A DNA stretch of 43,902 nucleotides from Bacillota bacterium (GTDB taxonomy: Bacteria; Bacillota; Negativicutes; Sporomusales; CTSoil-080): positions 82,105 to 126,006 of the forward strand of contig JAGGAC010000010.1 in the NCBI GenBank assembly GCA_017889635.1, written 5' to 3'. The notes under the pieces are model-generated. The model saw only the letters and a program-made list of their open reading frames with translations, ran no database searches and was not told the origin of the DNA. Numbering within the stretch: position 1 is the stretch's first letter; every line of letters begins with the position of its first letter. The translations under genes were made by a program, and so were the position numbers. Below are positions 17,363 to 32,849 of this stretch, in pieces.

Positions 17363-18015
17363 CTATATCATAAGCGTAACATCCAACGCTTCCAATACTT
17401 TATCAATTTGACACAATATAGTTACTTGCTCAGATCCTGCAAAAAGCAAACCAACAGCATAATTATCCTCAGTCAAAACAAGTGAACCGCTGTCTCCCGG
17501 CATACTCATCGGACCTGCCAGAATTTGTCCGGAAAATATTGCGTACTCAAAATGACTAAGACTTACTTGACAAGTTACTTCAGTTGCCAATACCACACTA
17601 GATGTCAATCCAGAACTACGACCACTTTTTTTAACCACCATTCCCACTGTCGCTTTTTTTGTTCCGCGTACGGCGCCAATGTTAATTATCTCAGCCTTGA
17701 TAGCATCATCATCTACCGGTGCAGCTACAGCGCAATCCACATAATTTATTCGTTCAGTTTCTCTTAGCACCTTGATCCGGTACCGCGGCTGAAATACTTT
17801 AACACACTTATTAAGCCACTCTTCGAATTTATTCGCAATGCGACACTGCGATGAAGCAATTTCACTATGAATAGGAACAAATCTTGTTAAATGCCCTATT
17901 ACCCCTGTCCCAATATCACCGCCGTCATAAAGTCCTGGTTGTAAAATTGCGTCACCTACTCCAGCCCGTTCATCATAACCATTAGTCAAATTAGCTAAAA
18001 CATGATTATTGGATA
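17363..18015 (-). pseudogene. Trypsin-like serine peptidase, 3' part of a split gene
   Basis: On the minus strand the frame reads SNNHVLANLTNGYDERAGVG up to a serine motif MPGDSGSLVL, a chymotrypsin-type peptidase with His (SNNHV), Asp (NYVDCAVAAP) and Ser (GDSGS) positions. The N-terminus is absent. Beyond the SNNH codons the frame hits a TAG at 18026-18028. The codons for SNN-H lie inside the 14-bp repeat at 18002-18015. The same repeat ends the missing N-terminal part at 32542, so the gene is interrupted by the inserted elements. A TTG at 17989 might start a shortened product, but it would lack the catalytic His. Confidence 0.88.
18002..18015. repeat. Attachment core 1 (left chromosomal junction)
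   Basis: ATGATTATTGGATA, first of three identical copies (others at 22332 and 32542). It is preceded by an extra C shared with copy 2. It lies in the active-site codons of the split peptidase gene and marks the left end of the inserted DNA. Confidence 0.85.
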
Positions 18016-18223
18016 CTCCACAACGCTAGACAATACTAATCAGCTAATCACTCTTAAATTGTTAGAATAATTGTTAGCTAGAGTCGGACAAGTCAATATG
18101 CGTTTTACGCAAAGAAATTGAAAAACTATATAAATCTTAATAATTAATCGATCCAATAATTTAGCAATTTATTTGCAGGAAATTAACCTAACTTGTTGTA
18201 TTTTATTTGCGAGGAGGGAATCA

Positions 18224-18862
18224 ATGCACTATTCATTTAAAAAGTATCTAATAACACTCATTGTTCTATTAACAGTATTTACATCCGGTATTATTATCGG
18301 CCATACAAACCAAACCTCTGCCGAACAATCTTCGGCGATTATGCCAAATACCTTAAAAGGCATTCACTCAGTCCCAGCAACTGGTTCTGTTGATGTAGCA
18401 TTTAGTCCCGCAGGTGGCATAACCGAAATGATAACTAACACAATCGCCAAAGCTAATAAAAGCGTCTATGTACAAGCATACAGTTTTACCTCTCCCGAAA
18501 TTATTAAAGCTCTCATCGACGCAAAAAAACGCGGCATAGATGTTCGAATTATCGTTGATAAAAGTAATGTGTCGGGACTAGATAAAAACTCATCGCGCGC
18601 AAAAAAATTAAGGAATCTTTACTCTTCCCTAATTAATAATGCTATTCCGCTAAAAGTCGATGATGCTTTTCAAATCGCCCACAGCAAAATCATGATTATC
18701 GATGGCATTGATGTTATCACCGGTTCTTTCAACTTTTCCTATTCAGCCGAGCATAATAACGCCGAAAATTGCCTAATACTCCATGGCAACAAACAACTTT
18801 CCGACGAATATATGAAGAATTGGCAATGGCGTTGGGACGCAACCGAAAATTATAGTATGTAG
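18224..18862 (+). CDS. Exported phospholipase D-type (single HKD) nuclease-like protein
   Basis: The start at ATG 18224 is set by GAGGAGGG; the frame itself is open further upstream. The 212-residue protein has an N-terminal hydrophobic segment (residues 8-26), a signal or anchor, followed by a PLD domain. VYVQAYSFTSPEIIKALIDA at 81-100 is the usual first strand-helix, and H153-x-K155-xxxx-D160 (HSKIMIID), then TGSFNFSYSAEHNNAEN, is the catalytic HKD region. Single-HKD proteins such as Nuc work as dimers. The family contains extracellular nucleases, so a role in DNA degradation outside the membrane is likely but unproven. It is first in element A. Confidence 0.85.
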   Translation: MHYSFKKYLITLIVLLTVFTSGIIIGHTNQTSAEQSSAIMPNTLKGIHSVPATGSVDVAFSPAGGITEMITNTIAKANKSVYVQAYSFTSPEIIKALIDAKKRGIDVRIIVDKSNVSGLDKNSSRAKKLRNLYSSLINNAIPLKVDDAFQIAHSKIMIIDGIDVITGSFNFSYSAEHNNAENCLILHGNKQLSDEYMKNWQWRWDATENYSM

Positions 18863-18896
18863 TAACATTACTTATTCGAAAAAACGCGAATGATAC

Positions 18897-18939
18897 AAGA
18901 GGGCATTCTAAAGCTAATCTTGCTTTAAAATGCCCTCTT
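18897..18939. terminator. Bidirectional terminator, PLD / DUF4127
   Basis: AAGAGGGCATT (18897-18907) pairs with AATGCCCTCTT (18929-18939), and AAAGC/GCTTT pairs inside the loop. It serves the convergent genes on both sides. Confidence 0.85.
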
Positions 18940-18943
18940 ATCT

Positions 18944-20503
18944 TTAATGCTTAACTTCTACTTGTAGTTCGAACATTCTGTTCCATGGAAAAGAAACTTT
19001 AATTTTTTCCGGTTGAAACCAAAGATTTTCTTTTGCAAATCCCTGTACCTGTCTTTGAGCCTCAGCTGTTAAAATTGGTTTAAAATCATTAAGATAAACC
19101 GCACTCCTTTTATTTGGCGAAACAAATTGATTATCCAAAATTTTTCTAATATTAGCCTCATAAGCCCAATCATCAAGATAACGAACGGCCAACAAACGCC
19201 TGCGACTTTCTTCGCTCATTGCTCCTGACATCATCCCCTGCCCAATAGCATAACCAATAGTATTACTGGCAGTATTCCACCCAGAATAGGCGCTGAGTTT
19301 ATCCAGTAAACTACGCCTGGATAATTCGGCCATAAGCGCATTGTCTGCTCCATTAGCAAATGAAATATCAGCAATCGCCACTTTATTTTCTTCTTTTAAC
19401 TGAGCCTCTATCCCATCAATAAACTTAGCTATTCTTGGGGTAAGCACTGTCGTATTTTTAAGCGATCCGGCTTCTAAGGTTTTTCCTGTTTCTGAAGTAT
19501 TCACCGCAAACACTAAATCAGGATGCACAGGATTATCAAATACGATTCCGCCAGCTGCGGTAATGTGATCAACAATCGTTTTGCCAACTTTTTGATCTTC
19601 GTAACTAGGTATTGAATCACCACCGGCCCCTGAAGCATATTGCAACTTAACTATAGGGATTTGCATCGTCAAGTTGTTGTACGCTCTGACTAACATAATC
19701 ATACCTAATTGATCGGCTCCAGGAAAGGTTTGGAAAATATCTGGCGATAAATCAGCTGCAAGTTTTACAAATTCTCGACCTTCTTTATGACTTTGAGAAT
19801 AAGGTGCTGTATCATCTCTTCCTAACAAGAAGAAACGAAATAAACCTTTCCTATCCATATCAATAAGAGAAGCATTAACGTCAAAGTTTTTTTGCCGGCG
19901 TTTCATCCAATCCTCTAAAAAAGCTGACGGAATAGCCGCCAATTTAGAATTAAGTTCTTTTTCTTCTTGTTTCGTAAGTCCTACTATTTCCTCTTTATCT
20001 TCTAACGCTGTTAACCGAAAAATATCCCATCCATATTTTTCATAATAACCAGGCTCAACGCCCCCTTCACTGCCCTGTGGAGTTCGTAAAACAGTAGTAT
20101 ATACATACAGGCCAAGATCAGGAAATGCTTTATGCAATTCACCAAACCGTTTCAAACGCTTCTGTAGTACCAATTCATCAAAACTATGCATCCGAGAATC
20201 AACTAAACCACCATAAATTAACGAATCTCCCGACAACACCATTGCGTCGGCTTGTCCACCGTTTTCCATAATCCATCGCCACAATTTTTCTGGGTCACCT
20301 TTTTTCCCCCGACTAGCTATTATTTCTTTCGGCGGTACTAAAATCTTAATATTTGCTGCCTTAGCAGTATCTATTACATATTCCAGACTAACCGGGCGAT
20401 CATCTTGTGGTACGTACAATATAGTACTAGCGTGAGTGATAGCACTCCCTATCAAAAATGACAATAAAAAAGCAAATCCCACAATCAACTTTCTTAACTT
20501 CAT
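18944..20503 (-). CDS. DUF4127 family protein, exported
   Basis: The 519-residue protein begins with a clear signal peptide (residues 1-26, LIVGFAFLLSFLIGSAITHAS). The rest matches the DUF4127 family: ILYVPQDDRPVSLEYV at the start of the mature part, DAMVLSGDSLIYGGLVDSR, LLGRDDTAPYSQSHKEG and ADISFANGADNALMAELSR. The paired conserved Asp residues and the GRDD motif suggest an enzyme, but no activity is established for the family. GGAGG precedes the ATG. It is convergent with the PLD gene, and its mature part should lie outside the cytoplasmic membrane. Confidence 0.9.
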   Translation of the reverse strand: MKLRKLIVGFAFLLSFLIGSAITHASTILYVPQDDRPVSLEYVIDTAKAANIKILVPPKEIIASRGKKGDPEKLWRWIMENGGQADAMVLSGDSLIYGGLVDSRMHSFDELVLQKRLKRFGELHKAFPDLGLYVYTTVLRTPQGSEGGVEPGYYEKYGWDIFRLTALEDKEEIVGLTKQEEKELNSKLAAIPSAFLEDWMKRRQKNFDVNASLIDMDRKGLFRFFLLGRDDTAPYSQSHKEGREFVKLAADLSPDIFQTFPGADQLGMIMLVRAYNNLTMQIPIVKLQYASGAGGDSIPSYEDQKVGKTIVDHITAAGGIVFDNPVHPDLVFAVNTSETGKTLEAGSLKNTTVLTPRIAKFIDGIEAQLKEENKVAIADISFANGADNALMAELSRRSLLDKLSAYSGWNTASNTIGYAIGQGMMSGAMSEESRRRLLAVRYLDDWAYEANIRKILDNQFVSPNKRSAVYLNDFKPILTAEAQRQVQGFAKENLWFQPEKIKVSFPWNRMFELQVEVKH

Positions 20504-20817
20504 TATTTTTCCTCCACCATTAACTTTAAGTCAAGATAACATTATGTTAATTCTTTATGTAATTATAAATCCCTACATTTTCATTAAGGTAATATTTCCC
20601 ACCGCTCTCCAAGCCGCAACCTCAGCACCTTTGCAGAGGGATCATCTCACAAACTTAGACAGCCCTGAAAATTTTATTATCACCTTAAAATCTGTCATGG
20701 TACTTCATCATGATATAGAAATGAAACTAATTATCTAACAAATAGTAATAATTTTGTAAGCTTATCGTAACATTAGTTCAGTAGTATTGAATCATAAAAC
20801 AAAGGAGGATGCACATT
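20504..20817. other. Intergenic region between divergent genes in element A
   Basis: The region must carry the promoters of the DUF4127 gene (minus) and of the small His/Pro-rich gene (plus). I see no convincing -35/-10 pair, RNA gene or repeat. Confidence 0.35.
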
Positions 20818-20991
20818 ATGAAAAAGAAACTATCAGCATTAATCCTGGGTTTAATGATTATGAGTTTTGCCGCTACGGTAAGTGCTCATGGCGGACCAGG
20901 ACCGGGTCCAGAGCCAGGACATGGACCAGAACCTAGACCTCATCATCATCACCACGCACCACCACCGCCACCTCCTGATTATGAGTGGTAA
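20818..20991 (+). CDS. Tiny exported His/Pro-rich protein, 57 aa
   Basis: The start at ATG 20818 is preferred because GGAGG (20804-20808) sits 9 bases before it. An ATG at 20809 directly abuts the ribosome site. Residues 1-24 form a signal peptide ending in VSA. The mature 30-odd residues are only Gly, Pro, Glu, Arg and His with a short aromatic end: PGPGPEPGHGPEPRP, then five His, a Pro run and DYEW. The His cluster could bind transition metals. The strong SD, signal peptide and own terminator make it a credible gene. The family is not recognised. Confidence 0.7.
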   Translation: MKKKLSALILGLMIMSFAATVSAHGGPGPGPEPGHGPEPRPHHHHHAPPPPPPDYEW

Positions 20992-21024
20992 ATCACAAAC
21001 TCATCACAACTAAATAATATTTTG

Positions 21025-21063
21025 AGCCAGGAACAACGCTTCATCGCGTCTCCTGGCTTTTTT
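21025..21063 (+). terminator. Terminator after the His/Pro-rich gene
   Basis: AGCCAGGA (21025-21032) pairs with TCCTGGCT (21051-21058), followed by T6. It also insulates the integrase gene that begins 72 bases later. Confidence 0.85.
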
Positions 21064-21134
21064 ATGTGCCAACTAATTAATGATGCATCGGATACTAAAT
21101 AAATTAATAGATTGTTAAGCAGGAGGTGAAATAA

Positions 21135-22274
21135 ATGAGTATTCACCAAAAGAACAGCAATTGGTATGTAATAATTTCCTATAAGGATGCATTTGGAAAG
21201 TTCAAGAAGAAGTGGTACAAATCTGGGCCAATTGCAAGTGACAAAGATGGAAAAAAAGCATTACAACTGGAAATAAAATTGCTCTTAGACTTGGAACGTG
21301 GCAATATAACCCTATCGGAAAAATCGACCGTTAAGGAGTTTTTAGCTAAATGGCTTGACTTAGAAATTAATCTGACTAAAAAGCCGCGAACAGCCTATAC
21401 CTATAAAAAAAAAATGGATAACATTTCAAAAGATATTGGGCATATAACAATATCTAAATTAACAGCAATCCAGATTAAAGAGCATATTAACTCTGAACTA
21501 AAGCGTGGACTAAAGCCAAATTCTATAAACGCAGAAATGACGGTTTTTAAGCAAGCAATGAAAAAAGCCGTTCAATGGCAAATCATAACCAAAAATCCTT
21601 GCGAGTTTGTAGACCTTCCAAAGCGCAATGAGCCAAAAAGCAGCATATATTCGTCGGAACAAGTCGAAAAGTTTTTTGCAATAATAAGGGATACTGATCT
21701 ATACTTGCCTTGTATGCTTGGTTTTATGTGCGGTCTACGCAGAGGAGAGATATGCGGCCTCAGATGGCAAGATATCGACCTTGACAATAAGGTCGCCATC
21801 ATCGCCCATAGTTACAACCGTAATCCGTTTACCGGCAAAATGGAGTTACAGGAAGTCAAAACATCTGCCAGTAAATCCCGAATCCCCTTACCGAATGTTG
21901 TAATTTCGGCATTAACCTTAGAACAACTAAAGCAAAAAAAAGATAGGCTGAAATATAAGACAGCCTATCAAGAGTCCGGACATGTTTGGGCACAGAAAAC
22001 AGGGCAACCACACCAGCCCGATCATTTTTATATAAAATTTCGCAAGATATTAACGGCTCACAATTTGCCTGTTATTCGTCCCCATGACATGCGCCACACC
22101 TTCGCTACCCTGTTATACGAATCCGGCTTAGATGATAAGGCAGTTTCAGGGGCAGTCAGACATTCAAAAGCAAGCTTTACATCAGATTATTATGTCCACC
22201 TGCGGGAACAAGTTAAACGCAAGCCAGCAGATGCGATCAACGACTTGTTCACCCGGTTGTTAGATAATTGTTAG
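21135..22274 (+). CDS. Tyrosine integrase of element A
   Basis: The 379-residue protein starts at ATG after AGGAGGTGA. Residues 3-55 form an arm-type DNA-binding domain (AP2-like: NWYVIISYKDAFGKFKKKWY). Residues 63-150 are the core-binding domain, and the catalytic domain follows. Catalytic residues visible are Arg at 202 in CGLRRGEICGLRW, Lys near 247 (TSASKSRI), His317-x-x-Arg320 in PHDMRHTFATLLYESG, His343 (VRHSKASF) and Tyr 352/353 (SDYYVHL). Its stop lies 57 bases before core 2. By eye about two thirds of residues in the central block are shared with the element B integrase, which has exactly the same length. Confidence 0.92.
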   Translation: MSIHQKNSNWYVIISYKDAFGKFKKKWYKSGPIASDKDGKKALQLEIKLLLDLERGNITLSEKSTVKEFLAKWLDLEINLTKKPRTAYTYKKKMDNISKDIGHITISKLTAIQIKEHINSELKRGLKPNSINAEMTVFKQAMKKAVQWQIITKNPCEFVDLPKRNEPKSSIYSSEQVEKFFAIIRDTDLYLPCMLGFMCGLRRGEICGLRWQDIDLDNKVAIIAHSYNRNPFTGKMELQEVKTSASKSRIPLPNVVISALTLEQLKQKKDRLKYKTAYQESGHVWAQKTGQPHQPDHFYIKFRKILTAHNLPVIRPHDMRHTFATLLYESGLDDKAVSGAVRHSKASFTSDYYVHLREQVKRKPADAINDLFTRLLDNC

Positions 22275-22331
22275 ATAGACAGAAGACAATACTACTTCGC
22301 CAGCACCATTGCCAACTTACTTAAACTTAAC

Positions 22332-22345
22332 ATGATTATTGGATA
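22332..22345. repeat. Attachment core 2 (junction between elements A and B)
   Basis: Second copy of ATGATTATTGGATA, with the same preceding C as copy 1. It lies 57 bases after the element A integrase stop, in a region without genes. Confidence 0.8.
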
Positions 22346-22509
22346 TAATAATATTTTATGCTACCATACATAAATCCGCCCCTACAGGGCTTAGCATTCC
22401 TCATACTTATTTGAACAAGCCAGACAAGACATTAAAAAGTTAGATTTTAAAAGCGTTAAATAGTTTAGAAAATAGATTAGACACTGAAAAGTAAACCCAT
22501 AACCGAAAC

Positions 22510-25500
22510 CTATTCTCCCTGACGAAATCCATTCTTCCACCGTTTCAAAACGGCACCAACGTTTAAATTGCCTAACGGTATGTTTTGAAAGTAAATAAAT
22601 ATTATCGGAATGATTATCAGGGTAAATACCGTTGAAGTTAATAGCCCACCTATTAGTACCAAAGCCATACTAACCCGGGTTTCCGCCCCCTCGGTAACCG
22701 ACAATGCTGTAGGCAGCATACCAACTACCATTGTTATTGTTGTCATAAAAATAGGCTTAAGTCTGGTCTTACCCGCCTCGATAATCGCGTCATATGCATT
22801 TTTGCCTTGCTCCATAAGAGTAAGGGTATAATCCAAAAGCAAGGTTCCGTTTTTTGCCACAAGTCCATCCATAATCAGAATCCCGATTAGCGAATATAGA
22901 TTTAAGGTATTGTGAGTCACCGCCAAAAATAGCAGCGAACCAATTAATCCTAACGGCAGAGAAAACATCCTGATCAATGACGTTGACAGCGACTCATAAA
23001 GTACCGCCAGTAATATATAAACAAGAATTAGCGACAAAGCTAGTGCCTGATACATTTCACTAAAAGTATCATCCATGCTGCTTGCCTGACCAGCAAAACG
23101 ATAACTTATATTTTGTCCCAAAACATCCGGAGTCATCTTTTGCGCCAATTCATTTAAAACCTCCTTTAGCGGCCTGTCAGTAATATTAGCAGTAATAGTA
23201 ATCGTCCGTTGTTTATCAAATCTAAATAACTGAACCGGACCAGTCCCGTCCGTTATCTTCGCAACATCACCGATTGATATCTGGTGGTTGCCCGCCATTA
23301 TCGGCAGTGATCGAATGTCTGATACCGTAAAACCGTCGCTGCCTTTCAGTCTGACCATAATATCAGTATCCTGTCCATCATTGGTCGGATCATTGGCATA
23401 AACCCCGGCTTGTTGACCGACTATCGCAGCATTAAAAACATTGGTAATTTCTGCAACTGAAGTGTTATAAAACTTGAGCTTTTCCCGATCAACGCTTAGT
23501 TGAATTTCTGGCATCCCCTCGGAATATGTGCTTCTCACATCTTTTAATCCCCTGACCTGTAAAAGAACAGCTTGGAGTTTATAATTTGCTTTAATTAAAC
23601 TATCCAAATTAGCGCCAAGTAATTGAATTTGGACTGGTGCAGAAGAGCCACCTCCACTACCGCTGGTACCTGATACACCAGCTACAGAGGACTGTGTCTC
23701 ACTAACCCTTATAATCACATTCGGCATATTTTTTGCCGCGTATGCCCTAACCTGATCAGTTACCTCCCACACGGTATGTTTACGGTCTTTCCGGTCAACT
23801 AATTGAACCGATATCGATCCGGCATTGCTTGTCGGCGTACCGATACTCGAAAGATACTTCGTTACTTCTGGAATAGTTGCTAGATACTGTTCCAGACTTG
23901 CAATAGCAATATTAGTTTGCTGAATATTTTGCCCAACCGGTAATTCCACAGCAATCCTAAAACTGCCTTCATCAGTTCGCGGCATATATTCAGCTCCGAT
24001 AATTCCCAGCGGAATCAGAGCTACCGCCAAAATAAACATAATTAAAACCCCGGCAACAACTTTTTTCCTGTTAGCCAGTGCCCAGCGCAGAAAAATTTCA
24101 TATTTAACAATCGCGCTTTTCTCCAATCGATCCATAAAAGTCCAAACATGTCCCGTAGGCTCACTAAGTCCATTTTTAAAAAGCTTTGATGCTAACATCG
24201 GAGTAAGCGTAAATGATATTAACATTGAAAACAAAGTAGCAAAAACTATTGTAAGACCAAATTGACGAAAGAACTGTCCTGTCATCCCATTCATAAATGC
24301 AATCGGCATAAAAACTACAACGTCACATAGCGTAATCGCAATAGCCGCCATACCGATTTCGGTACGTCCCTCTTCGGCGGCAACAGCTGCCGTTTTACCC
24401 AATTTCATATGTCGGTGAATATTTTCCAGCACAACAATGGAATCATCAACTAAAATTCCAATACACAAGGCCAGCCCCATTAATGACATCATGTTAAAAG
24501 TAAAACCGGCTATATACATAGCAAAAAAAGTGGCTATAATCGATGTTGGAATGGCAATAATAACAGCCGCAGTAGACCGCCAGCCACGCAAGAACAGATA
24601 TAGCACCAGGCCAGTAGTAAAAAGACCTTCAATCAAGCTTGCTAAAGTATTATGCAATGAATTATTAACATATTGTGACGAGTCAGTTATAATCACAAAT
24701 TGATAGTCTGGGTATTCCGCCTTTAATGTAGCCAATTGGTCCATCGTATTTTTAGCAGTATTAACAATGTTGGCATCACTATTCATATATACCGACAAAG
24801 AAATCGCGTCAGCCCCCTGGGTTCGGCTGTAGCGGCTTACACGGGCATCCTGTTCTTTTATTGTCGCTACATCTTTTAGCGGTATCGATATTCCGTTGCC
24901 GTTGGTTACCTCTAATTTCGCAATTTCTTCAGGTGTTAGATATTGAGCAAGTAACCGGACATCAGCCTGAGTTTTATCATTATATACCGTACCCGAAGGG
25001 AGTAAAACGTTCTCCCCCTTAATTTTACTGATTATCTGACTTATTGAAAGGTTATAAAATCGTAGTTTATTGCGATCGACCTCTACAGCAACCTCTTTAT
25101 CCCGTCCACCATAAAGCTGTACCTCGGATACTCCGTCAGCGCGACCTAACCGTTCCTTAAAAACATTATTGGCAACCGAATATACATCACTCAAGGGATC
25201 ATTAGCCACAACTGCAATCTCCATAATCGGAGTGGCATTAATATCACGCTTTACGACAACAGGTTCGTCAATGCCGTCAGGCAATTTTTTTCTAACTGAG
25301 TTTACCTGTTTAGTAACGTCGATAGCTGCAATATCGGTATTGGCTGTAAAGTCAAACTCCATAATAACTCTGGCGTTTTGAGGACTGGCGATTGACGTGA
25401 TATGCTTCAAATGAGCCACTGAAGACAACGATTCTTCCAATGGCTTAATGACCTGATTTTCCATCTCCTCTACACCGGCTCCAGTGTAATGAACAGAAAC

Positions 25501-25638
25501 TGTTACATAGGGCGAATTTAGCGCCGGAAGAAGTTCAACCCCAATCCGTTGAAGGCTATATAGTCCCAGCACCACAAAAAGCATAACAATCATAGTTATT
25601 CCTACCGGTCTTTGTATGGAAAATCTAGTAATATTCAT
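22510..25638 (-). CDS. RND-family efflux pump, inner membrane permease (AcrB/HAE1-like)
   Basis: The 1042-residue protein is a full-length RND drug exporter that trades protons for substrate. It starts with the family N-terminus SIQRPVGITMIVMLFVVLGL. The proton-relay Asp pair is at 398-399 (GILVDDSIVVLENIH). The C-terminal half repeats the fold, with DEGSFRIAVELPVGQ and the relay Lys in GLVAKNGTLLLDY. Twelve helices and two large outer-side loops are present. It lies 27 bases after the adaptor gene on the same strand. No outer membrane channel gene is in this element, so it must use one encoded elsewhere. Substrates are unknown. Confidence 0.95.
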   Translation of the reverse strand: MNITRFSIQRPVGITMIVMLFVVLGLYSLQRIGVELLPALNSPYVTVSVHYTGAGVEEMENQVIKPLEESLSSVAHLKHITSIASPQNARVIMEFDFTANTDIAAIDVTKQVNSVRKKLPDGIDEPVVVKRDINATPIMEIAVVANDPLSDVYSVANNVFKERLGRADGVSEVQLYGGRDKEVAVEVDRNKLRFYNLSISQIISKIKGENVLLPSGTVYNDKTQADVRLLAQYLTPEEIAKLEVTNGNGISIPLKDVATIKEQDARVSRYSRTQGADAISLSVYMNSDANIVNTAKNTMDQLATLKAEYPDYQFVIITDSSQYVNNSLHNTLASLIEGLFTTGLVLYLFLRGWRSTAAVIIAIPTSIIATFFAMYIAGFTFNMMSLMGLALCIGILVDDSIVVLENIHRHMKLGKTAAVAAEEGRTEIGMAAIAITLCDVVVFMPIAFMNGMTGQFFRQFGLTIVFATLFSMLISFTLTPMLASKLFKNGLSEPTGHVWTFMDRLEKSAIVKYEIFLRWALANRKKVVAGVLIMFILAVALIPLGIIGAEYMPRTDEGSFRIAVELPVGQNIQQTNIAIASLEQYLATIPEVTKYLSSIGTPTSNAGSISVQLVDRKDRKHTVWEVTDQVRAYAAKNMPNVIIRVSETQSSVAGVSGTSGSGGGSSAPVQIQLLGANLDSLIKANYKLQAVLLQVRGLKDVRSTYSEGMPEIQLSVDREKLKFYNTSVAEITNVFNAAIVGQQAGVYANDPTNDGQDTDIMVRLKGSDGFTVSDIRSLPIMAGNHQISIGDVAKITDGTGPVQLFRFDKQRTITITANITDRPLKEVLNELAQKMTPDVLGQNISYRFAGQASSMDDTFSEMYQALALSLILVYILLAVLYESLSTSLIRMFSLPLGLIGSLLFLAVTHNTLNLYSLIGILIMDGLVAKNGTLLLDYTLTLMEQGKNAYDAIIEAGKTRLKPIFMTTITMVVGMLPTALSVTEGAETRVSMALVLIGGLLTSTVFTLIIIPIIFIYFQNIPLGNLNVGAVLKRWKNGFRQGE

Positions 25639-25665
25639 TGTACCACCCCGAATTGTCTGTATTTA

Positions 25666-26922
25666 CTACTCTGACACTACGGCAGGATTAGCCTTCATTC
25701 CGTTCTTTAGCCGTGCTAGATTAGAAATGACAACTTTTTCACCTTCGTTAATTCCAGCGATAATTTCAATACTACTATCGTTACGCGCGCCAGTTTGGAT
25801 AACGCGTTCTATCACTTGATTATTTTCATCGACGATAAATATTCGGTCCTTTCCATTCAAAGAAGTCACAGCTTCTTTCGGCACAAATAAAGTTTGCGGT
25901 CTAAGAAGCAAAGTAAAATCAGTCCTGGCAAACATTCCAGCCTTGAGTGTGTTATCGGTATTATCTAGGGCCAGACGAACAGAAAAGGACTGTGTGGCAG
26001 CATCAATTGCTGGACTGACATAAATAATCTTACCATTATAGTTCTTACCAACTGCATCAATTACGATTGACGCAGTCATCCCAGTCCTAAATAGCCCGAT
26101 GTCCTGCTCTGAGACGGAGCAATCAACATAGATATTGCTATTATCAACAATCGACAACAGCTTCTGCCCGGCTTGAACCAAGTTGCCGACTTCCACCTGC
26201 CGATAGCCAATTTCTCCTGCTCGCGGCGAACGTATAACCATGTCATTTCTCTGATTTTCCAGGGCGTCAATCGCCCCAGCAGCTTTGTCCCTAATCGCCT
26301 CTTTCGACATTACAACAGCCGCACTTCCTGATGAAACCTGATTAGCTAATGTATCCAAAGCCGCTTTTGCAGCATTCATTTGCTGTTCAGCATTATCCAA
26401 AGCCTCTCTCGACACACCACCCATCTTAGATATAGCCTTATACCGTTCATAATTTATTGAACTCAACTTATAATCTGCCTGAGCTTTTTGGTAACTTGCT
26501 CTAAACGAAGCATTACTTTCCACTACATCGGCATTGGCGCCGCGAAAAGCAGCCTCATTTTGTGTCAAGGCTGCGTCGATATCCTTAGTGTCCTGAACAA
26601 CTAACACCTGACCAGGCTCAACCGGTTGGCCGAGTTCAACATTAACTTGAATTATTTTGCCGGAATATTTAGCTGAGATATCTACCTGGGACTCCGGTAC
26701 CGTCTTGCCGGTTAATTCAATAGTTTTCATCATATCTTTGCGGTGTACGGTCATAATATCGACATTCGGCTTTACCTCAGACCGCGGATTATTTGCTGCG
26801 TTCTTGCTATGAAACCCAAATATCGCCAAAGGCAAAATCAGCAAAACAACCACACCAGTAATTACCTTTGTTTTCATCGGTATTGTACGTAATCGCTTTC
26901 TTATTGGCATAGTCTTTATCAC
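25666..26922 (-). CDS. RND efflux periplasmic adaptor subunit (membrane fusion protein)
   Basis: The best start is GTG 26922, with AAGGAG eight bases before it. A GTG at 26931 overlaps the ribosome site and ATG 26910 is too far, giving about 418 residues. One N-terminal helix (about residues 18-38) anchors it. The lipoyl-type halves (ELTGKTVPESQVDISAKYSG and the second part DMVIRSPRAGEIGYRQVEVG) flank a long alpha hairpin rich in Ala. Beta-barrel and membrane-proximal domains follow, with AGMFARTDFTLL near the end. It links the permease to an outer membrane channel. A triple 11-bp repeat and promoter lie upstream. Confidence 0.93.
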   Translation of the reverse strand: MIKTMPIRKRLRTIPMKTKVITGVVVLLILPLAIFGFHSKNAANNPRSEVKPNVDIMTVHRKDMMKTIELTGKTVPESQVDISAKYSGKIIQVNVELGQPVEPGQVLVVQDTKDIDAALTQNEAAFRGANADVVESNASFRASYQKAQADYKLSSINYERYKAISKMGGVSREALDNAEQQMNAAKAALDTLANQVSSGSAAVVMSKEAIRDKAAGAIDALENQRNDMVIRSPRAGEIGYRQVEVGNLVQAGQKLLSIVDNSNIYVDCSVSEQDIGLFRTGMTASIVIDAVGKNYNGKIIYVSPAIDAATQSFSVRLALDNTDNTLKAGMFARTDFTLLLRPQTLFVPKEAVTSLNGKDRIFIVDENNQVIERVIQTGARNDSSIEIIAGINEGEKVVISNLARLKNGMKANPAVVSE

Positions 26923-27002
26923 TAAAATCACTCCTTGTCCTGGCGATAATTCTCTAATCCATTGCTACTTTCCGGCTTATTAAATCCTGTTCATTACTTA
27001 TT

Positions 27003-27031
27003 ATGTTACCAACCTATAATTACTGAGACAA
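27003..27031 (-). promoter_or_regulatory. Promoter of the RND efflux operon
   Basis: On the minus strand TTGTCT (27026-27031) and TAACAT (27003-27008) are separated by 17 bases. Both boxes deviate from consensus, fitting a promoter that needs an activator. The start codon is about 80 bases further. Confidence 0.5.
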
Positions 27032-27043
27032 GCGTCCAAACCA

Positions 27044-27076
27044 GAACTTTCTGTGAACTTTTTGTGAACTTTTTGC
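27044..27076 (-). promoter_or_regulatory. Three tandem 11-bp direct repeats, probable response-regulator site
   Basis: The units GAACTTTCTGT (27044-27054), GAACTTTTTGT (27055-27065) and GAACTTTTTGC (27066-27076) follow one another without gap. An 11-bp period is the spacing used by OmpR/PhoB-type regulators. The block ends 12 bases before the -35 box of the efflux operon, a usual place for an activator. No regulator gene is in the window. Confidence 0.65.
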
Positions 27077-27208
27077 ATTTCATAGTAAAATTACTTGAAT
27101 TTTTTTTATAACTCAATCTCATTTAAAATCAGGTAGCCCATTCAAAGCTAGATAAGTAAGTATCCTAAGCCCCCTCGGCAAGCTCTTAATCAAGAGAGCG
27201 TAAATTAT

Positions 27209-27242
27209 AAAACCGCTTAAAACTTAAGTTCTAAGCGGTTTT
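27209..27242 (-). terminator. Terminator of the TadE/TadG gene cluster
   Basis: AAAACCGCTTA (27209-27219) pairs with TAAGCGGTTTT (27232-27242). It lies about 65 bases past the stop of the last pseudopilin gene and separates it from the efflux operon. Confidence 0.8.
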
Positions 27243-27306
27243 ATTGGTCTGGTTTTAACATAGCAAGTTAGTTCTCTAGCTTTTAAAGAAATCTCCCCCC
27301 AAATCT

Positions 27307-28320
27307 TTAAGACCACGTCCAATCATCATCAACCAAATAAATATTTACCGGCCCATAATATGAAGATGCTGTGCTCGCACTAGTAGTTGGCGGCAAAGAT
27401 ACTTTCACAAAACGTCCCTTGACTTGAAGGTTTGGATAATACGTAACCCCATCTTTAACTACCGCCGTTCCCGTGTCAACAGATTGAAGGAAAAACCCAA
27501 CGAATCCTTGGATTTTAAGTTTATCACCCGAATAGTATTTGGCTAGACCGCTAGGTAAACTACTTACCACCGGTACCATCATCAGCCTGGCTTCGCCAAC
27601 CGTTAAGCTGTCATAATTTGTATTAGTATCTGAAGTCAACCTTGTCATAAATGCGTTTACCCCAAGCTGACCGCCTGTAGCATCAGACCAATAATATAAC
27701 GTATCATCAATTGTAAGTACATTGGGATCACCACTTTTTAGATAACTAAGATACTCACTATCTGTTGCGTTGTTTTTGAAACAAATATTCGCATAGCCGA
27801 ACTCATTCGCGCCTGTTGGATTAATCTTCATCGTATATTGCTGAGTATGTGAGCCATCCCACGTCATATTGGTAGGTGCCTCCATTACAAAAGGCGCAGC
27901 AATCCCAGCCGGCAGCGAATTAGCAGGAACCGCAACAGCTTTTGCAGTTGCAGTCACAGTTACCGAACCACCAGAAGCAAAAAAAGCTGGTATTGTTCGA
28001 CTGGTAGTCACCTTAACAAGTACCCCAGATCCGTTTACTGTAGCATCTGCAGTTACGGTATCGCTTGACTTCCCCGGCGATTGTTGAGCATAGCTTTGGG
28101 CTACGCTTTCTATAGTACTTTCGACAATATCACTGTTATTGGTTGAAGCAGCACCGGCAAGGGCAGCTTGATCAACTGCCGCCTGCAGCTTGCTCTTGAT
28201 CACTGCTCGATGTCCCAGATCTATCACCACTGCGCTGACACCAATCATAACTACCACAGCAATTGCAGCAATGGGCAAGACTTGTCCCTTGTTATTTCCA
28301 ATAACTTTAAACACCATCAT
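27307..28320 (-). CDS. TadG-like Flp pilus-associated protein
   Basis: The 337-residue protein opens with NNKGQVLPIAAIAVVVMIGVS, the TadE/TadG-type N-terminal helix with the usual Gly-Gln before the hydrophobic stretch. It continues with AVVIDLGHRAVIKSKLQAAVDQAALAGA, typical of Tad_N (PF13400) domains. The remaining 260 residues are a beta-rich exported region without a recognised domain. I set the start at ATG 28320 (ribosome site GGTG is weak; ATG 28317 is equally possible). It is the last of three such genes, and no Tad ATPase or secretin is nearby. Confidence 0.8.
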   Translation of the reverse strand: MMVFKVIGNNKGQVLPIAAIAVVVMIGVSAVVIDLGHRAVIKSKLQAAVDQAALAGAASTNNSDIVESTIESVAQSYAQQSPGKSSDTVTADATVNGSGVLVKVTTSRTIPAFFASGGSVTVTATAKAVAVPANSLPAGIAAPFVMEAPTNMTWDGSHTQQYTMKINPTGANEFGYANICFKNNATDSEYLSYLKSGDPNVLTIDDTLYYWSDATGGQLGVNAFMTRLTSDTNTNYDSLTVGEARLMMVPVVSSLPSGLAKYYSGDKLKIQGFVGFFLQSVDTGTAVVKDGVTYYPNLQVKGRFVKVSLPPTTSASTASSYYGPVNIYLVDDDWTWS

Positions 28321-28398
28321 CACCAACTTTAAATAAAGTATGCATATTAACAATGTTGAATCAGAACAGGGAAACTTATTACTTGAAGAGTAGACCCG

Positions 28399-28824
28399 TC
28401 AGTTTGTAGGAGACGTCTGTAACATAACCGTTGACGTACTTGAAACTGTATAAGGACTTGACAAAATAGCACTCATAACCGGAAAAAGCATATTCATTGA
28501 GCAGGATACTGTAACCGTTACTGGATTAGCAGCTTTCATAGGAGTAGGACTCACAGTAACCGTTAAGTTATCAACTACAGTGGCATTAACGCCAGCAGTT
28601 AAGTAAGCTAATGCAGCTGTATTTGCTGTTTTCCGATTACCGCTTTTGGCGACTGCTAAACTAGCTTCACGAGTAGCCTGAACAACCATTTCATACCTGT
28701 ATATTAGACGCCCGAAATCTATGATTCCTGCTAACAAAAATAAGAGAACCGGCACAATTATGGCAAATTCGACAATACTTTGTCCACCATTATTGCGGAA
28801 ACATTTACTTATCCTTCTCAGCAC
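28399..28824 (-). CDS. TadE-like pseudopilin
   Basis: GTG 28824, seven bases after GAGGTG, begins a 141-residue protein. NNGGQSIVEFAIIVPVLLFL is the TadE signature (GQ-x-x-x-EF followed by a helix), then IIDFGRLIYRYEMVVQATRE. The mature part is beta-rich. TadE proteins are minor pseudopilins of the Flp/Tad pilus, processed by a prepilin peptidase. The longer reading from 28839 overlaps the ribosome site. It follows the Ser/Thr-rich TadE-like gene and precedes the TadG-like gene. Confidence 0.85.
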   Translation of the reverse strand: MLRRISKCFRNNGGQSIVEFAIIVPVLLFLLAGIIDFGRLIYRYEMVVQATREASLAVAKSGNRKTANTAALAYLTAGVNATVVDNLTVTVSPTPMKAANPVTVTVSCSMNMLFPVMSAILSSPYTVSSTSTVMLQTSPTN

Positions 28825-28896
28825 TATAAAGCACCTCACTCATCCCACGGCCGGGACTATCAATCAGTATTTTTACCCAACAAATTTCTCGGCGGC

Positions 28897-29715
28897 TCAC
28901 AGGTTTACACACCCACTTGATGATGATGACGAACTCGATGACGATGACGAACTCGATGACGATGAACTTGTTGACGAACTTGACGTTTGACCTGACGATG
29001 TCGACGATGAACTTGTTGACGTCTTACCCGACGATGTTGAACTCGTTGTTGAACTCGTCGACGTCTTACCCGATGATGTCGAACTTGTTGTTGAACTTGT
29101 TGATGTCTTACCCGACGATGTCGATGTCGAACTTGTTGTTGAACTCGTTGACGTCTTACCCGACGATGTCGATGTCGAACTTGTTGTTGTCGTTCCCGAT
29201 GTTGACGACGTCGAACTTGTTGTTGTCGTACCTGATGTTGACGACGTCGAACTCGATGTCGAACTTGTTGACGTTGTCGAACTTGTTGGAAGAGTAGAAG
29301 ATTTAGCCGAATTAGCTCCTTGCTGATAAACAGTGGCTACATACTTAATGGTATACGAACTCCCCACAAAAAGTTTTCCTACTGGAGTTAGTAGTGGTAC
29401 ACTCGCCACTGCTGTAATTTTAGTCGGGTTACTCACTGACAAAGTCGATACAGTAACAGTGCAATCCTGAACTAACTTGTGAATTTCATCTGTTGCAGTC
29501 GCTGTAGCAACTGCAGACGTGCTATTAGTAGCTATCAGCGATACCGCCCGTCCACCTCTTCGAGTTGCCTCTGCCAGCATCGCCTGACGAAACAGGACAT
29601 TGCCAAAATCAATTGCTCCCAACACTACCGTAATAAAAATCGGCAATACCAGCGCAAATTCAACCATGGCTTGCCCTCGTCTATTTCGAACAACTCTCAT
29701 AATCTGGCATAACAT
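28897..29715 (-). CDS. TadE-like pseudopilin with a long Ser/Thr-only tail
   Basis: Residues 1-150 form a TadE-type domain (NRRGQAMVEFALVLPIFITV, then GAIDFGNVLFRQAMLAEATRR). From about residue 145 the chain is almost entirely Ser and Thr with a few Gly and Lys, built from variable repeats such as TSSGKTSTSSTTSS. It ends in a run of about 20 Ser and GCVNL. The tail repeats are also near-identical at the DNA level (28915-29285). Such a tail suggests a glycosylated stalk or adhesin extension and is a hot spot for length change. AGGTGA precedes the ATG. The C-terminal Cys is odd. It heads the three-gene cluster. Confidence 0.8.
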   Translation of the reverse strand: MLCQIMRVVRNRRGQAMVEFALVLPIFITVVLGAIDFGNVLFRQAMLAEATRRGGRAVSLIATNSTSAVATATATDEIHKLVQDCTVTVSTLSVSNPTKITAVASVPLLTPVGKLFVGSSYTIKYVATVYQQGANSAKSSTLPTSSTTSTSSTSSSTSSTSGTTTTSSTSSTSGTTTTSSTSTSSGKTSTSSTTSSTSTSSGKTSTSSTTSSTSSGKTSTSSTTSSTSSGKTSTSSSSTSSGQTSSSSTSSSSSSSSSSSSSSSSSSGCVNL

Positions 29716-29899
29716 TAAAATATCACCTCTTTAATAAATCATTGCTAGTAGATATTTTTCAGTCAGTCGCTAAAGGAAAAAACACCAATACAAAGACGCT
29801 AAATCCCCCCTTTTTGGGCAAAGAATTATGCTTAAAAACAGAAACTAATCAGTATTTGCTTGCTAATTTATTTTATCAGTTAACCTGTCCACCAAAATG
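29716..29899. other. Intergenic region upstream of the pseudopilin cluster
   Basis: It contains the presumed minus-strand promoter for the cluster and the end of the ICMT-like gene. A short plus-strand ORF here has no ribosome site. A C6-T5-G4 run at about 29806-29818 is unexplained. Confidence 0.35.
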
Positions 29900-30925
29900 T
29901 CAGTATAGTCCAGGTATAAAGCGATATTTTACAACTTTACAATATTCTTGATAGTCTGGATCTGTAATAAGATGCCGCTCTTCAGTTATTGCACGCATAA
30001 AATAGATAAAAGATAAGAATATCATTCCAATATAGGCTGTTGGAGTATTAATTGCGAATATGCTAATCCACCAAGCAAGATTTTTTGATATATATGCCGG
30101 ATGACGCACATAAGCGTAGGGACCATTTGTGACTATACCGCGATTAGTTAGATTTGAGGCCTTCATACCTAATGCAACAGATCCCCAAACATATATAGTA
30201 AACAGCATTAACGCCGTTAATCTTGCTAAAAACGTTATATTGTCAGAATCAAAAACAGCATAATCATCTGCATAACAAGAAATATAATAATTGGTGATAT
30301 TATTAAACGGAGGATAACAGAGTAAAGCCACTATCCAGCCAAGCATCGTTGGTTCCACAGAGCGAATTTTATTGCGGAAAATTTTCGCATCTACCATGTA
30401 GCCAAAGGTAAATATTGAACAATCCACCAATAATAACAGCCCAAATAAAAGTGGATAGATGGCATTATTGAATGCACCTACTGTTAATTCAACATTATAG
30501 TCTAACGTCCAGGCAGCATAGCCTCTGATAACCGAATCAATATTACCAAATATAAAATTAATCATAATCGGGAAAAAAAATATTTTTACAGCTAAAAACA
30601 AAAGATTGGTTTTTTCTGTGAAACTAATGTGGGGCATTTTGAAATTAGGGTCAGATGTAAACTTCCCAAGATATACAATAGAATGTTTTAAAAAATTCCG
30701 AATTGTTCTTAATGCTATGTAACCTTTTGTTTCCGATACCTTTTTCTCATCTATAAAGTAGTAATATATAAATCCTCCGAGTGTATAGAGAACAGCATAG
30801 CAGCCTAAAATATATTGCGTTTCTATTCGCAAAAAATCAATATAATATTTGTTGTTTAAGTAAAAAGCTAATACCAAATAGATGACTAATAAATTTGCAC
30901 TATAATATTTAAATTTTAAACTCAT
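29900..30925 (-). CDS. Isoprenylcysteine-methyltransferase-like membrane enzyme
   Basis: The start ATG 30925 follows AAGGAG; the longer frame from 30958 is unlikely. The 341-residue protein has about eight hydrophobic helices. Its last 90 residues hold the ICMT/PEMT-family motif NRGIVTNGPYAYVRHPAYIS, then EERHLITDPDYQEYCKVVKYRFIPG. GPY-x-x-x-RHP-x-Y and the later EE pair bind S-adenosylmethionine at the membrane face. In bacteria such enzymes methylate lipids or small hydrophobic molecules, and the substrate is unknown. It uses noticeably more A/T-rich codons than the pump genes. Confidence 0.8.
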   Translation of the reverse strand: MSLKFKYYSANLLVIYLVLAFYLNNKYYIDFLRIETQYILGCYAVLYTLGGFIYYYFIDEKKVSETKGYIALRTIRNFLKHSIVYLGKFTSDPNFKMPHISFTEKTNLLFLAVKIFFFPIMINFIFGNIDSVIRGYAAWTLDYNVELTVGAFNNAIYPLLFGLLLLVDCSIFTFGYMVDAKIFRNKIRSVEPTMLGWIVALLCYPPFNNITNYYISCYADDYAVFDSDNITFLARLTALMLFTIYVWGSVALGMKASNLTNRGIVTNGPYAYVRHPAYISKNLAWWISIFAINTPTAYIGMIFLSFIYFMRAITEERHLITDPDYQEYCKVVKYRFIPGLY

Positions 30926-31352
30926 TTTTTCTCCTTCTGATACAAATTCTTTAATCATCGTTTTCTAAATACTTAGCAAAGCAACTTTTTAGACGTTTCT
31001 ATCGCATTTTGCAATATATTAAAATTTCTTTTTTATATATTGGTTATTTTAGCATATTATGTAGTAATAAGTAAAGGATCTTTAGAATTTTTTGTCACTT
31101 TTTATTAAGAAAACGCAAAAAAGAAGAATTCAAAAACGTCAATACCTAATATATAATCAAACTTTCAATAGCCTTCACCGCCACTAGTAAATAGCTAAAG
31201 GCAGGTTACTATCAAGCGATAGACCTGCCTTTAGCTATTTATATTGCAATAATCAAAGGAACGTTTACTATCTCTCCAGCATACTATAGAAAATCAGCCA
31301 TTTGTAACATCAATATAATCTAAGTCTATCTGATAATTTAGGGGGTGATTCC
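30926..31352. other. Intergenic region before the element B integrase
   Basis: AT-rich DNA with the promoter of the minus-strand methyltransferase, a 19-bp hairpin (31188-31241) and the integrase leader. A TATAAT-like box is at about 31313-31318 on the plus strand. No gene was found. Confidence 0.4.
31188..31241. terminator. Perfect 19-bp hairpin upstream of the element B integrase
   Basis: Bases 31188-31206 and 31223-31241 pair fully around a 16-base loop. It is not downstream of any gene, because both neighbours read away from it. It therefore acts as an insulator or an attenuator, 112 bases before the integrase start. Confidence 0.5.
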
Positions 31353-32492
31353 ATTAGCATTCAGCGGAAAGGAAATACTTGGTATGTAGTCCTTTCTTAC
31401 AAAGATACCTTCGGAAAGAAAAAACAAAAATGGTATCGCGCTGGTCCAATAGCCGACGATAAAAGTGGTCAAAAAGCTGAAAAACTTGAGCGCCAATTAC
31501 TCATAGATCTTGAACGCGGTGAAACAGTCGCAAGTAACAAATTAACTGTCAAAGAATATCTCGACAAATGGCTTGATATTGAAATAAGGCCTAGCCTCCG
31601 GCCACGTACAATTTACCATTACACCATGCAAGTCATTAATATTTGCAAAAACATTGGCGGTATTGAAATACAAAAACTTACTCCACTTCAAATAAAAGAG
31701 CACATTAATGCTGAATTCGCTAGAGGCATTAAAGCAAATTCTATTGGAACACAAATGGCCATCTTCAAATGTGCAATGAGAAAAGCAGAAGAGTGGCAAA
31801 TCATAACCAAAAATCCTTGTGAATACATCAAGTTGCCAAAACGTACTGAACCTAAAAACGCCATATATTCACCAGAGCAGGTCGAAAAATTATTGCTGAC
31901 AGCAAAAAGCACCAATCTTTATTTACCTTGTGTTCTTGGTTTTTTGTGTGGTCTGCGCCGTGGCGAAATATGCGGTCTTAGATGGCAGGATATTGATATC
32001 GAAACTAAAACAGCAGATATCCAACACAGCTTTGATCGGAATCCATTAACCAAAACTTTAGAACTTGGCAAGGTTAAAACAATGGCCAGCAAGTCAAGAA
32101 TAGTTCTATCTGACATCGTTATTATCGCCCTTAAACAAGAACAATTACAGCAAAAAGAATATCAGCTAAAAAATGGCCCTAACTATAAAAACCTTGATTT
32201 TACATGGGCCCACTCCGACGGTTCTCCTTATCTTCCTGATTACCTTTATGCTGCATTTATCAAGTTGTTAAAAAAAGCAGGCTTGCCTGTCATTCGCCCG
32301 CATGATATGCGTCATACCTTTGCCACCTTGCTATGGGAAAGCGGTCTAGATGATAAAAGTATTTCTGCTGCCGCCCGCCATGCTAAAACAAGCTTCACAA
32401 GCGACTATTATGTTCACCTAAGGCAAACTGCCAAAAATCGTCCTGCCGCAGCGATTGACAGCATGTTTAAAAGAAAATTAGAAAAAGATTAG
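31353..32492 (+). CDS. Tyrosine integrase of element B, probable ATT start
   Basis: The open frame reads SIQRKGNTWYVVLSYKDTFG from an ATT codon at 31353. That is the exact counterpart of the ATG of the element A integrase, preceded by GGGGGTGA at the right distance. No ATG, GTG or TTG occurs in frame until 31626, which would lose the arm-binding domain. From ATT the length is 379 residues, identical to the first integrase. Catalytic residues are all present: CGLRRGEICGLRW, HDMRHTFATLLWESG, the RHAKTSF His and SDYYVHL. ATT is a known rare start (as in infC). A decayed start codon, making the gene silent, is the alternative. Confidence 0.85.
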   Translation: MSIQRKGNTWYVVLSYKDTFGKKKQKWYRAGPIADDKSGQKAEKLERQLLIDLERGETVASNKLTVKEYLDKWLDIEIRPSLRPRTIYHYTMQVINICKNIGGIEIQKLTPLQIKEHINAEFARGIKANSIGTQMAIFKCAMRKAEEWQIITKNPCEYIKLPKRTEPKNAIYSPEQVEKLLLTAKSTNLYLPCVLGFLCGLRRGEICGLRWQDIDIETKTADIQHSFDRNPLTKTLELGKVKTMASKSRIVLSDIVIIALKQEQLQQKEYQLKNGPNYKNLDFTWAHSDGSPYLPDYLYAAFIKLLKKAGLPVIRPHDMRHTFATLLWESGLDDKSISAAARHAKTSFTSDYYVHLRQTAKNRPAAAIDSMFKRKLEKD

Positions 32493-32541
32493 AAGCTACA
32501 ATTATCAACCTTTAAATCTATTGTTTCGTTTAAAACTAACT

Positions 32542-32555
32542 ATGATTATTGGATA
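32542..32555. repeat. Attachment core 3 (right chromosomal junction)
   Basis: Third copy of ATGATTATTGGATA, 49 bases after the element B integrase stop. It abuts the 5' part of the split peptidase gene. Confidence 0.85.
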
Positions 32556-32849
32556 AAATCAGCGGCCGACCAGTACTGTTATCTCTAACAACCGCTCCAA
32601 AAGTACCGGCGGAAATTCTAAAATGTCCAATACTTATTCCACCACATCTGTAAGCATTCCATCGATTCTCTTGGGTATAATTGCCGATCTTCTAAGGTTA
32701 TCTTTTGCATACTTTTTTTTAACTAATATAACAGCAGCTTGCTTGCCGGTATTTTCTCCTCTCACTTGTTTAATCCCATTGCCGACCCCTACCACATTTT
32801 CAATACCGCGCAATTCTTGAAACAATTCAAAAATCCTTTTTCTCTCCAT
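32542..32849 (-). pseudogene. Trypsin-like serine peptidase, 5' part of the split gene (also frameshifted)
   Basis: ATG 32849, after AGGAGG, opens the conserved N-terminus MERKRIFELFQELRGIENVV to TDVVE, then stops at 32634. In another frame the sequence continues [20 protein letters not shown] to [10 protein letters not shown], ending inside core 3. The gap between the two frames is 5 bases, so one base was lost or two gained. Joined at the core to 17363-18015 it gives a chymotrypsin-fold peptidase with the catalytic triad. The gene is disrupted twice: by insertion and by this frameshift. Confidence 0.85.

Follow-up and report, generated by a model that had tools for sequence, protein, structure and literature searches.

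Two probable integrase-bearing islands stacked head to tail within a peptidase gene of a Sporomusales bacterium

Two separate site-specific islands, termed A and B, very probably lie head to tail at one attachment site in a chromosomal peptidase gene of a Sporomusales bacterium, where they would have been assembled by tandem accretion. They are located within a window of 43,902 nucleotides (the whole stretch of DNA that was analysed), are bounded by three copies of one 14-bp core, and each carries its own tyrosine integrase (Table 1). According to the proposed mechanism, the integrase would bind the TTAGA arms and the core of a circular island, whose core would recombine with the same sequence in the Ser-Asn-Asn-His codons of the peptidase; the integration would cut the gene and duplicate the core, and the second island would then target one of the duplicated cores. 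We infer the circular forms, the order of insertion, the binding of the TTAGA motifs by the integrase and the mobility, and the passage between cells has to be deduced as well, because the islands are without transfer genes.

Table 1. Coordinates of the tandem islands, their ends, genes and target in the window
Feature	Position	Strand	Remarks
Split peptidase, 3' part	17363..18015	-	Contains GDSG; His codon kept; 66/66 columns invariant in intact relatives retained
Core copy 1	18002..18015		Joins the peptidase 3' side to the left end of island A (outer left junction); exact repeat
Island A	18002..22345		4.3 kb; extends from core 1 to core 2; doubled TTAGA motif at each end
Doubled TTAG[AC] motif, A left end	18062..18078	+	12-bp period; probable arm site
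PLD-like (PLDc_2) protein, cargo A	18173..18862	+	PF13091
DUF4127 protein, cargo A	18944..20503	-	PF13552; hairpin at 18897-18939
Small His/Pro-rich ORF, cargo A	20809..20991	+	60 aa; AGGAGG; ORF only
Tyrosine integrase int1	21135..22274	+	379 aa; PF00589, PF14659; R, K, HxxR, H, Y regions conserved
Doubled TTAGA motif, A right end	22260..22275	+	11-bp period; overlaps int1 3' end; probable arm site
Core copy 2	22332..22345		Junction A right / B left; exact repeat
Island B	22332..32555		10.2 kb; extends from core 2 to core 3; doubled TTAGA motif at each end
Doubled TTAGA motif, B left end	22465..22481	+	12-bp period; probable arm site
RND efflux permease, cargo B	22510..25638	-	PF00873
RND periplasmic adaptor, cargo B	25666..26931	-	TIGR01730 above cut-off
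Three Tad/TadE-like genes, cargo B	27307-28353, 28399-28839, 28897-29715	-	PF13400, PF07811
ICMT-like membrane methyltransferase, cargo B	29900..30958	-	PF04140
Tyrosine integrase int2	31353..32492	+	379 codons; apparent ATT start, AGGGGGTG upstream; Pfam Phage_integrase match
Doubled TTAGA motif, B right end	32478..32493	+	11-bp period; overlaps int2 3' end; probable arm site
Core copy 3	32542..32555		Joins the right end of island B to the peptidase 5' side (outer right junction); exact repeat
Split peptidase, 5' part	32542..32849	-	With 64-bp deletion and frameshift

Attachment core and target gene

The core, ATGATTATTGGATA, is present in the window as an exact 14-mer on one strand only, three times and nowhere else, and the whole genome (4,536,269 bases in 152 contigs) also contains three copies, all at the island ends, versus none of the reversed control, so that a chance repeat as the origin of the cores was rejected. 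The window and genome counts bear out the threefold occurrence that had been claimed in an earlier, sequence-only reading of this DNA, and the second and third copies do lie 57 and 49 bases past the integrase stops, as that reading had it. Two islands, three cores and two integrases correspond to the arrangement of tandem accretion, in which n islands are delimited by n+1 cores and each has its own co-oriented integrase; the integrase at one end of each island, next to the right core, and the direct repeats at both ends, which match the uninterrupted target of relatives, are those of a genomic island. No tRNA or RNA target was found in the window.

The target gene encodes a Nal1-like serine peptidase (PF25819; rice NAL1 structures were matched by profile), and the outer cores are indeed, as had been claimed, the two break points of this one gene. 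The sequence-only reading was correct as to the two-part gene but overlooked that the 5' part has lost 64 bp and carries a frameshift; the deleted bases encode a conserved stretch and the 5' part is out of frame, therefore the peptidase gene of this genome would stay disrupted even if the islands were lost. The core is read as the Ser-Asn-Asn-His (SNNH) codons of the peptidase and falls within ILSNNHVLAN, the longest run of invariant residues among 17 intact peptidases; in the alignment with rice NAL1, its His falls in the TN-x-HV motif and, by analogy with the chymotrypsin-like family, would be the catalytic one.

A match to the peptidase was found in 29 of 300 related genomes, including the source genome and the genome G001 described below, and in 26 of the other 27 it is contained in one ORF, the remaining one (G024) having it frameshifted into two frames that overlap, away from the core region, which is whole. 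Comparison with relatives in which the peptidase is uninterrupted, as proposed in the sequence-only reading, revealed the empty site in nine checked relatives amid the same neighbours (methyltransferase, patatin, cotF-like), the patatin gene being present in 9/9 and the methyltransferase and cotF-like genes in most, with fewer neighbours within the fetched stretch in 3/9. Neither of the two outcomes that had been named as refuting the integration, namely close relatives carrying the 14.5 kb without the flanking repeats or the peptidase halves lying apart with no core in many genomes, was seen in the relatives searched.

Integrases and island ends

The integrases of both islands are 60% identical to each other and have conserved catalytic residues. 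The description of two related, co-oriented integrases of 379 codons holds for int1 and for the relatedness, whereas int2 reaches this length only from an ATT codon: its homology begins at the ATT at 31353 behind AGGGGGTG (31341-31355), where the G001 homologue has an ATG, and no ATG, GTG or TTG precedes position 31626 in its frame. Judged by this apparent start, int2 may be poorly translated, in which case island B would depend on another integrase. The search for carriers of the integrase subfamily, which covered about 550 genomes, gave none beyond the source genome and G001, and its presence in phages or plasmids was rejected, as all matches there were below 60% identity.

At every island end there is a doubled TTAGA motif, which was absent from the sequence-only reading. 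The two TTAG[AC] units are on the same strand and are spaced by 11 bp at the integrase end and by 12 bp at the other end of both islands, and on the + strand of the window the doubled motif occurs only four times, which are exactly the four island ends. In two genomes, the pattern TTAG[AC]-N5-7-TTAG[AC] was found in the same orientation at 8/8 island ends examined, while dinucleotide shuffles of each 200-bp end gave such a pair in 0.4-2% of cases, rates that understate chance because the pattern was defined after inspecting the ends. Better evidence for the motif than the shuffles is its recurrence at four ends in G001 and beside integrases of 36-42% identity, which have it at the gene end or just past. 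Judged by this placement, the doubled motifs are probably the arm sites of the integrase.

In three of these 36-42% identical integrases, a tRNA gene (Ala, Val, Val) lies within about 100 bases downstream; tRNA targeting by these relatives rests on position, as the stretches searched yielded no att repeats at the tRNA genes. Such tRNA-adjacent positions, seen in at least three relatives, point to a change of target in the present subfamily, which probably switched from a tRNA gene to protein-coding DNA.

Second occurrence in a related genus

The genome G001 is the MAG CTSoil_081, assigned by its authors to the Sporomusales family UBA7701 (PMC8084988). It represents another genus of the same family, and the cut in its peptidase gene likewise follows the LSNN codons. 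Beyond the peptidase 5' part come integrase a at 17444-18583, a core at 21216 and then integrase b at 21276-22475; another contig, C36, starts with the core and the peptidase 3' part, past which it carries the genes known from the window's left flank, and a third one, C45, has a TTAGA pair of its own and terminates precisely in the core. Since the contig breaks fall at the core, the array of G001 is not fully assembled. Island a of this genome has a length of 3.8 kb and the same minimal plan, with cargo unlike that of A and B. The integrase tree pairs int2 with a, and int1 with b, each pairing having 99% bootstrap. The proposed search for other integrases having the same core has thus yielded a related pair at the same peptidase codons, and the same-site integration of two elements is supported both by the empty sites and by this same-codon cut beside related integrases in a second genus. 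Islands at this site are known from these two genomes only, and no strain with a single island at the site was seen among the genomes searched.

Several other features of the G001 contigs may be mentioned. An unassigned 144-aa gene beside the core end of C45 (20753-21389) could be a regulator or an excisionase of a third island. The core copy on contig C83 lies inside a transporter gene and was taken as a chance occurrence. On contig C53, RqcH, dapF, metK, priA, def and fmt are located past integrase b, with no further core, and comparison with the genomes G000 and G018 gave no explanation of this gene order, which may stem from a rearrangement or a chimeric contig.

The order of peptidase 5' part, int2 type and int1 type is identical in both genomes. 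Such a shared order arises by chance half the time, and common ancestry would give the same order too. It also fits the entry of A and B as one already-tandem composite, that is, one insertion event instead of two, which the structure accommodates equally well and for which there is a precedent in the transfer of whole composites reported in a review of IMEs (PMC5704250). However, A and B both possess complete ends and an integrase of their own, the integrases are only 60% identical and the cargo is unrelated, and entry as a composite is considered unlikely.

Cargo of the islands

All ORFs of at least 110 aa in islands A and B, except the antisense ORFs inside them, were identified. Among these genes there are no relaxase, coupling protein or type IV secretion genes, which are expected of an ICE or IME, and no virion, packaging or replication genes, the PHROGs matches being limited to the integrases and families of unknown function, in discordance with a prophage or PICI; at this ORF length, the claim that neither element has transfer, replication or phage genes was upheld. 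An excisionase gene was not found in A or B. Defence cargo was rejected, as the PLD protein matches DrmC models weakly and is without DISARM partners. The third of the TadE-like proteins (28897-29715) has a long repetitive Ser/Thr-rich tail, for which a degenerate DNA repeat codes.

The gene content would also be explained if the islands were remnants of a larger ICE or prophage stripped of its transfer or virion genes, and the more distant integrases of the clade do occur next to tRNA genes and on contigs of putative viral origin. This origin seems quite unlikely, in view of the intact ends of both islands, in which no transfer or phage pseudogenes were seen, and of the minimal plan shared by island a of G001. 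An autonomous relative having the same integrase and core was found in none of about 550 genomes.

As for the cargo sources, the DUF4127 gene of island A with its hairpin (18897-20577) has 82% DNA identity to a chromosomal locus of G001 (C79, 19597-21269), with a pS of 0.51 versus 0.63-0.88 for the flanking genes, and there is no second DUF4127 copy in the source genome; taken together, these values suggest that the gene was gained horizontally from a relative. The RND permease of island B has 79% identity to other families versus 68% to G001.

Recent cuts or an inherited pair

The peptidase 3' halves of the source genome and G001 were compared with each other and gave a pN/pS of 0.22, while nine intact flanking genes gave 0.14-0.37 (the int1/b pair was excluded from this comparison). 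Of the residues invariant in intact relatives, the 3' half of G001 keeps 65/66 and its 5' half 32/32, the 3' half of the source genome having lost none. With the invariant residues kept and the pN/pS like that of the intact neighbours, the cuts in the two genera appear recent, and, as judged from the same values, they probably arose by separate insertions rather than from one inherited split. An ancestral tandem pair, inherited vertically by both genera with the cargo swapped later, would account for the orthologous integrase pairs, their same order, the same codons and the protein identity of int2 and a (67%), which is like that of vertical genes; however, a gene cut since the divergence of the genera is expected to decay, and the 3' halves are without relaxed selection and retain nearly all invariant residues, which makes such inheritance very unlikely.

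Relation to known systems

The stacking of two site-specific islands is well supported here and belongs to a known kind of event; no description of the target gene or of the arm motif was met in the literature searched. The Islander database lists 125 tandems of at least two islands and four of at least three (PMC4383910), and these, as well as the tandem accretion of ICEs and IMEs and tandem SGI1 (PMC4383910; PMC5704250), resemble the present case in that several islands, every one having an integrase and an att copy of its own, occupy a single target. However, the Islander islands reside in tRNA or tmRNA genes, whereas here the internal active-site codon run of a peptidase gene is occupied and the gene is not restored, and ICEs and IMEs have transfer genes, which A and B lack. 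The islands moved by jumbo phages (PMC12595487) are alike in the tyrosine integrase, direct repeats, cargo and lack of transfer genes, but they lie beside tmRNA in Pseudomonas and carry defence systems, none of which was confidently found here, nor is a helper known. HE-PICIs (PMC10111431) share the doubled co-oriented motif, with one copy per crossover side, and the protein-coding targets, but have a motif of their own, TGTATTGC, and a phage-satellite gene set with alpA, and neither the set nor alpA is present here.

Skin, SPbeta in spsM, gin in gerE and yin in yabG are also inserted within a protein-coding gene of a spore former, and their excision restores the intact gene. That A and B likewise form a gene-control element is hardly credible, even with the precise intragenic cut, the cotF-like spore coat gene next to it, the membership of a spore-forming order and the otherwise well conserved halves, as excision here would leave the 64-bp deletion and frameshift in place and no excisionase was found. 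In distinction to GInt, with its ginABCD operon and several integrases (PMC5385486), there is one integrase per island, and, in distinction to the integron, where one integrase platform captures attC cassettes, each unit has its own integrase and end motifs.

Significance

It is conceivable, if quite doubtful, that the tandem islands represent a family-wide type of minimal island, in which two integrase lineages return to the same active-site codons and stack there with freely exchangeable cargo drawn from family members' chromosomes, the DUF4127 gene and its hairpin being one example. If true, this would be a shared docking site to which every cassette brings its own integrase. The site is a clean natural comparison, with many empty targets, islands stacked in two genera, a compact arm motif and defined island ends, and the probable switch from tRNA to protein-coding targets offers a case for study. 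As the core encodes the most conserved part of a protein found widely across the order, the integrases may be tested as tools for Sporomusales.
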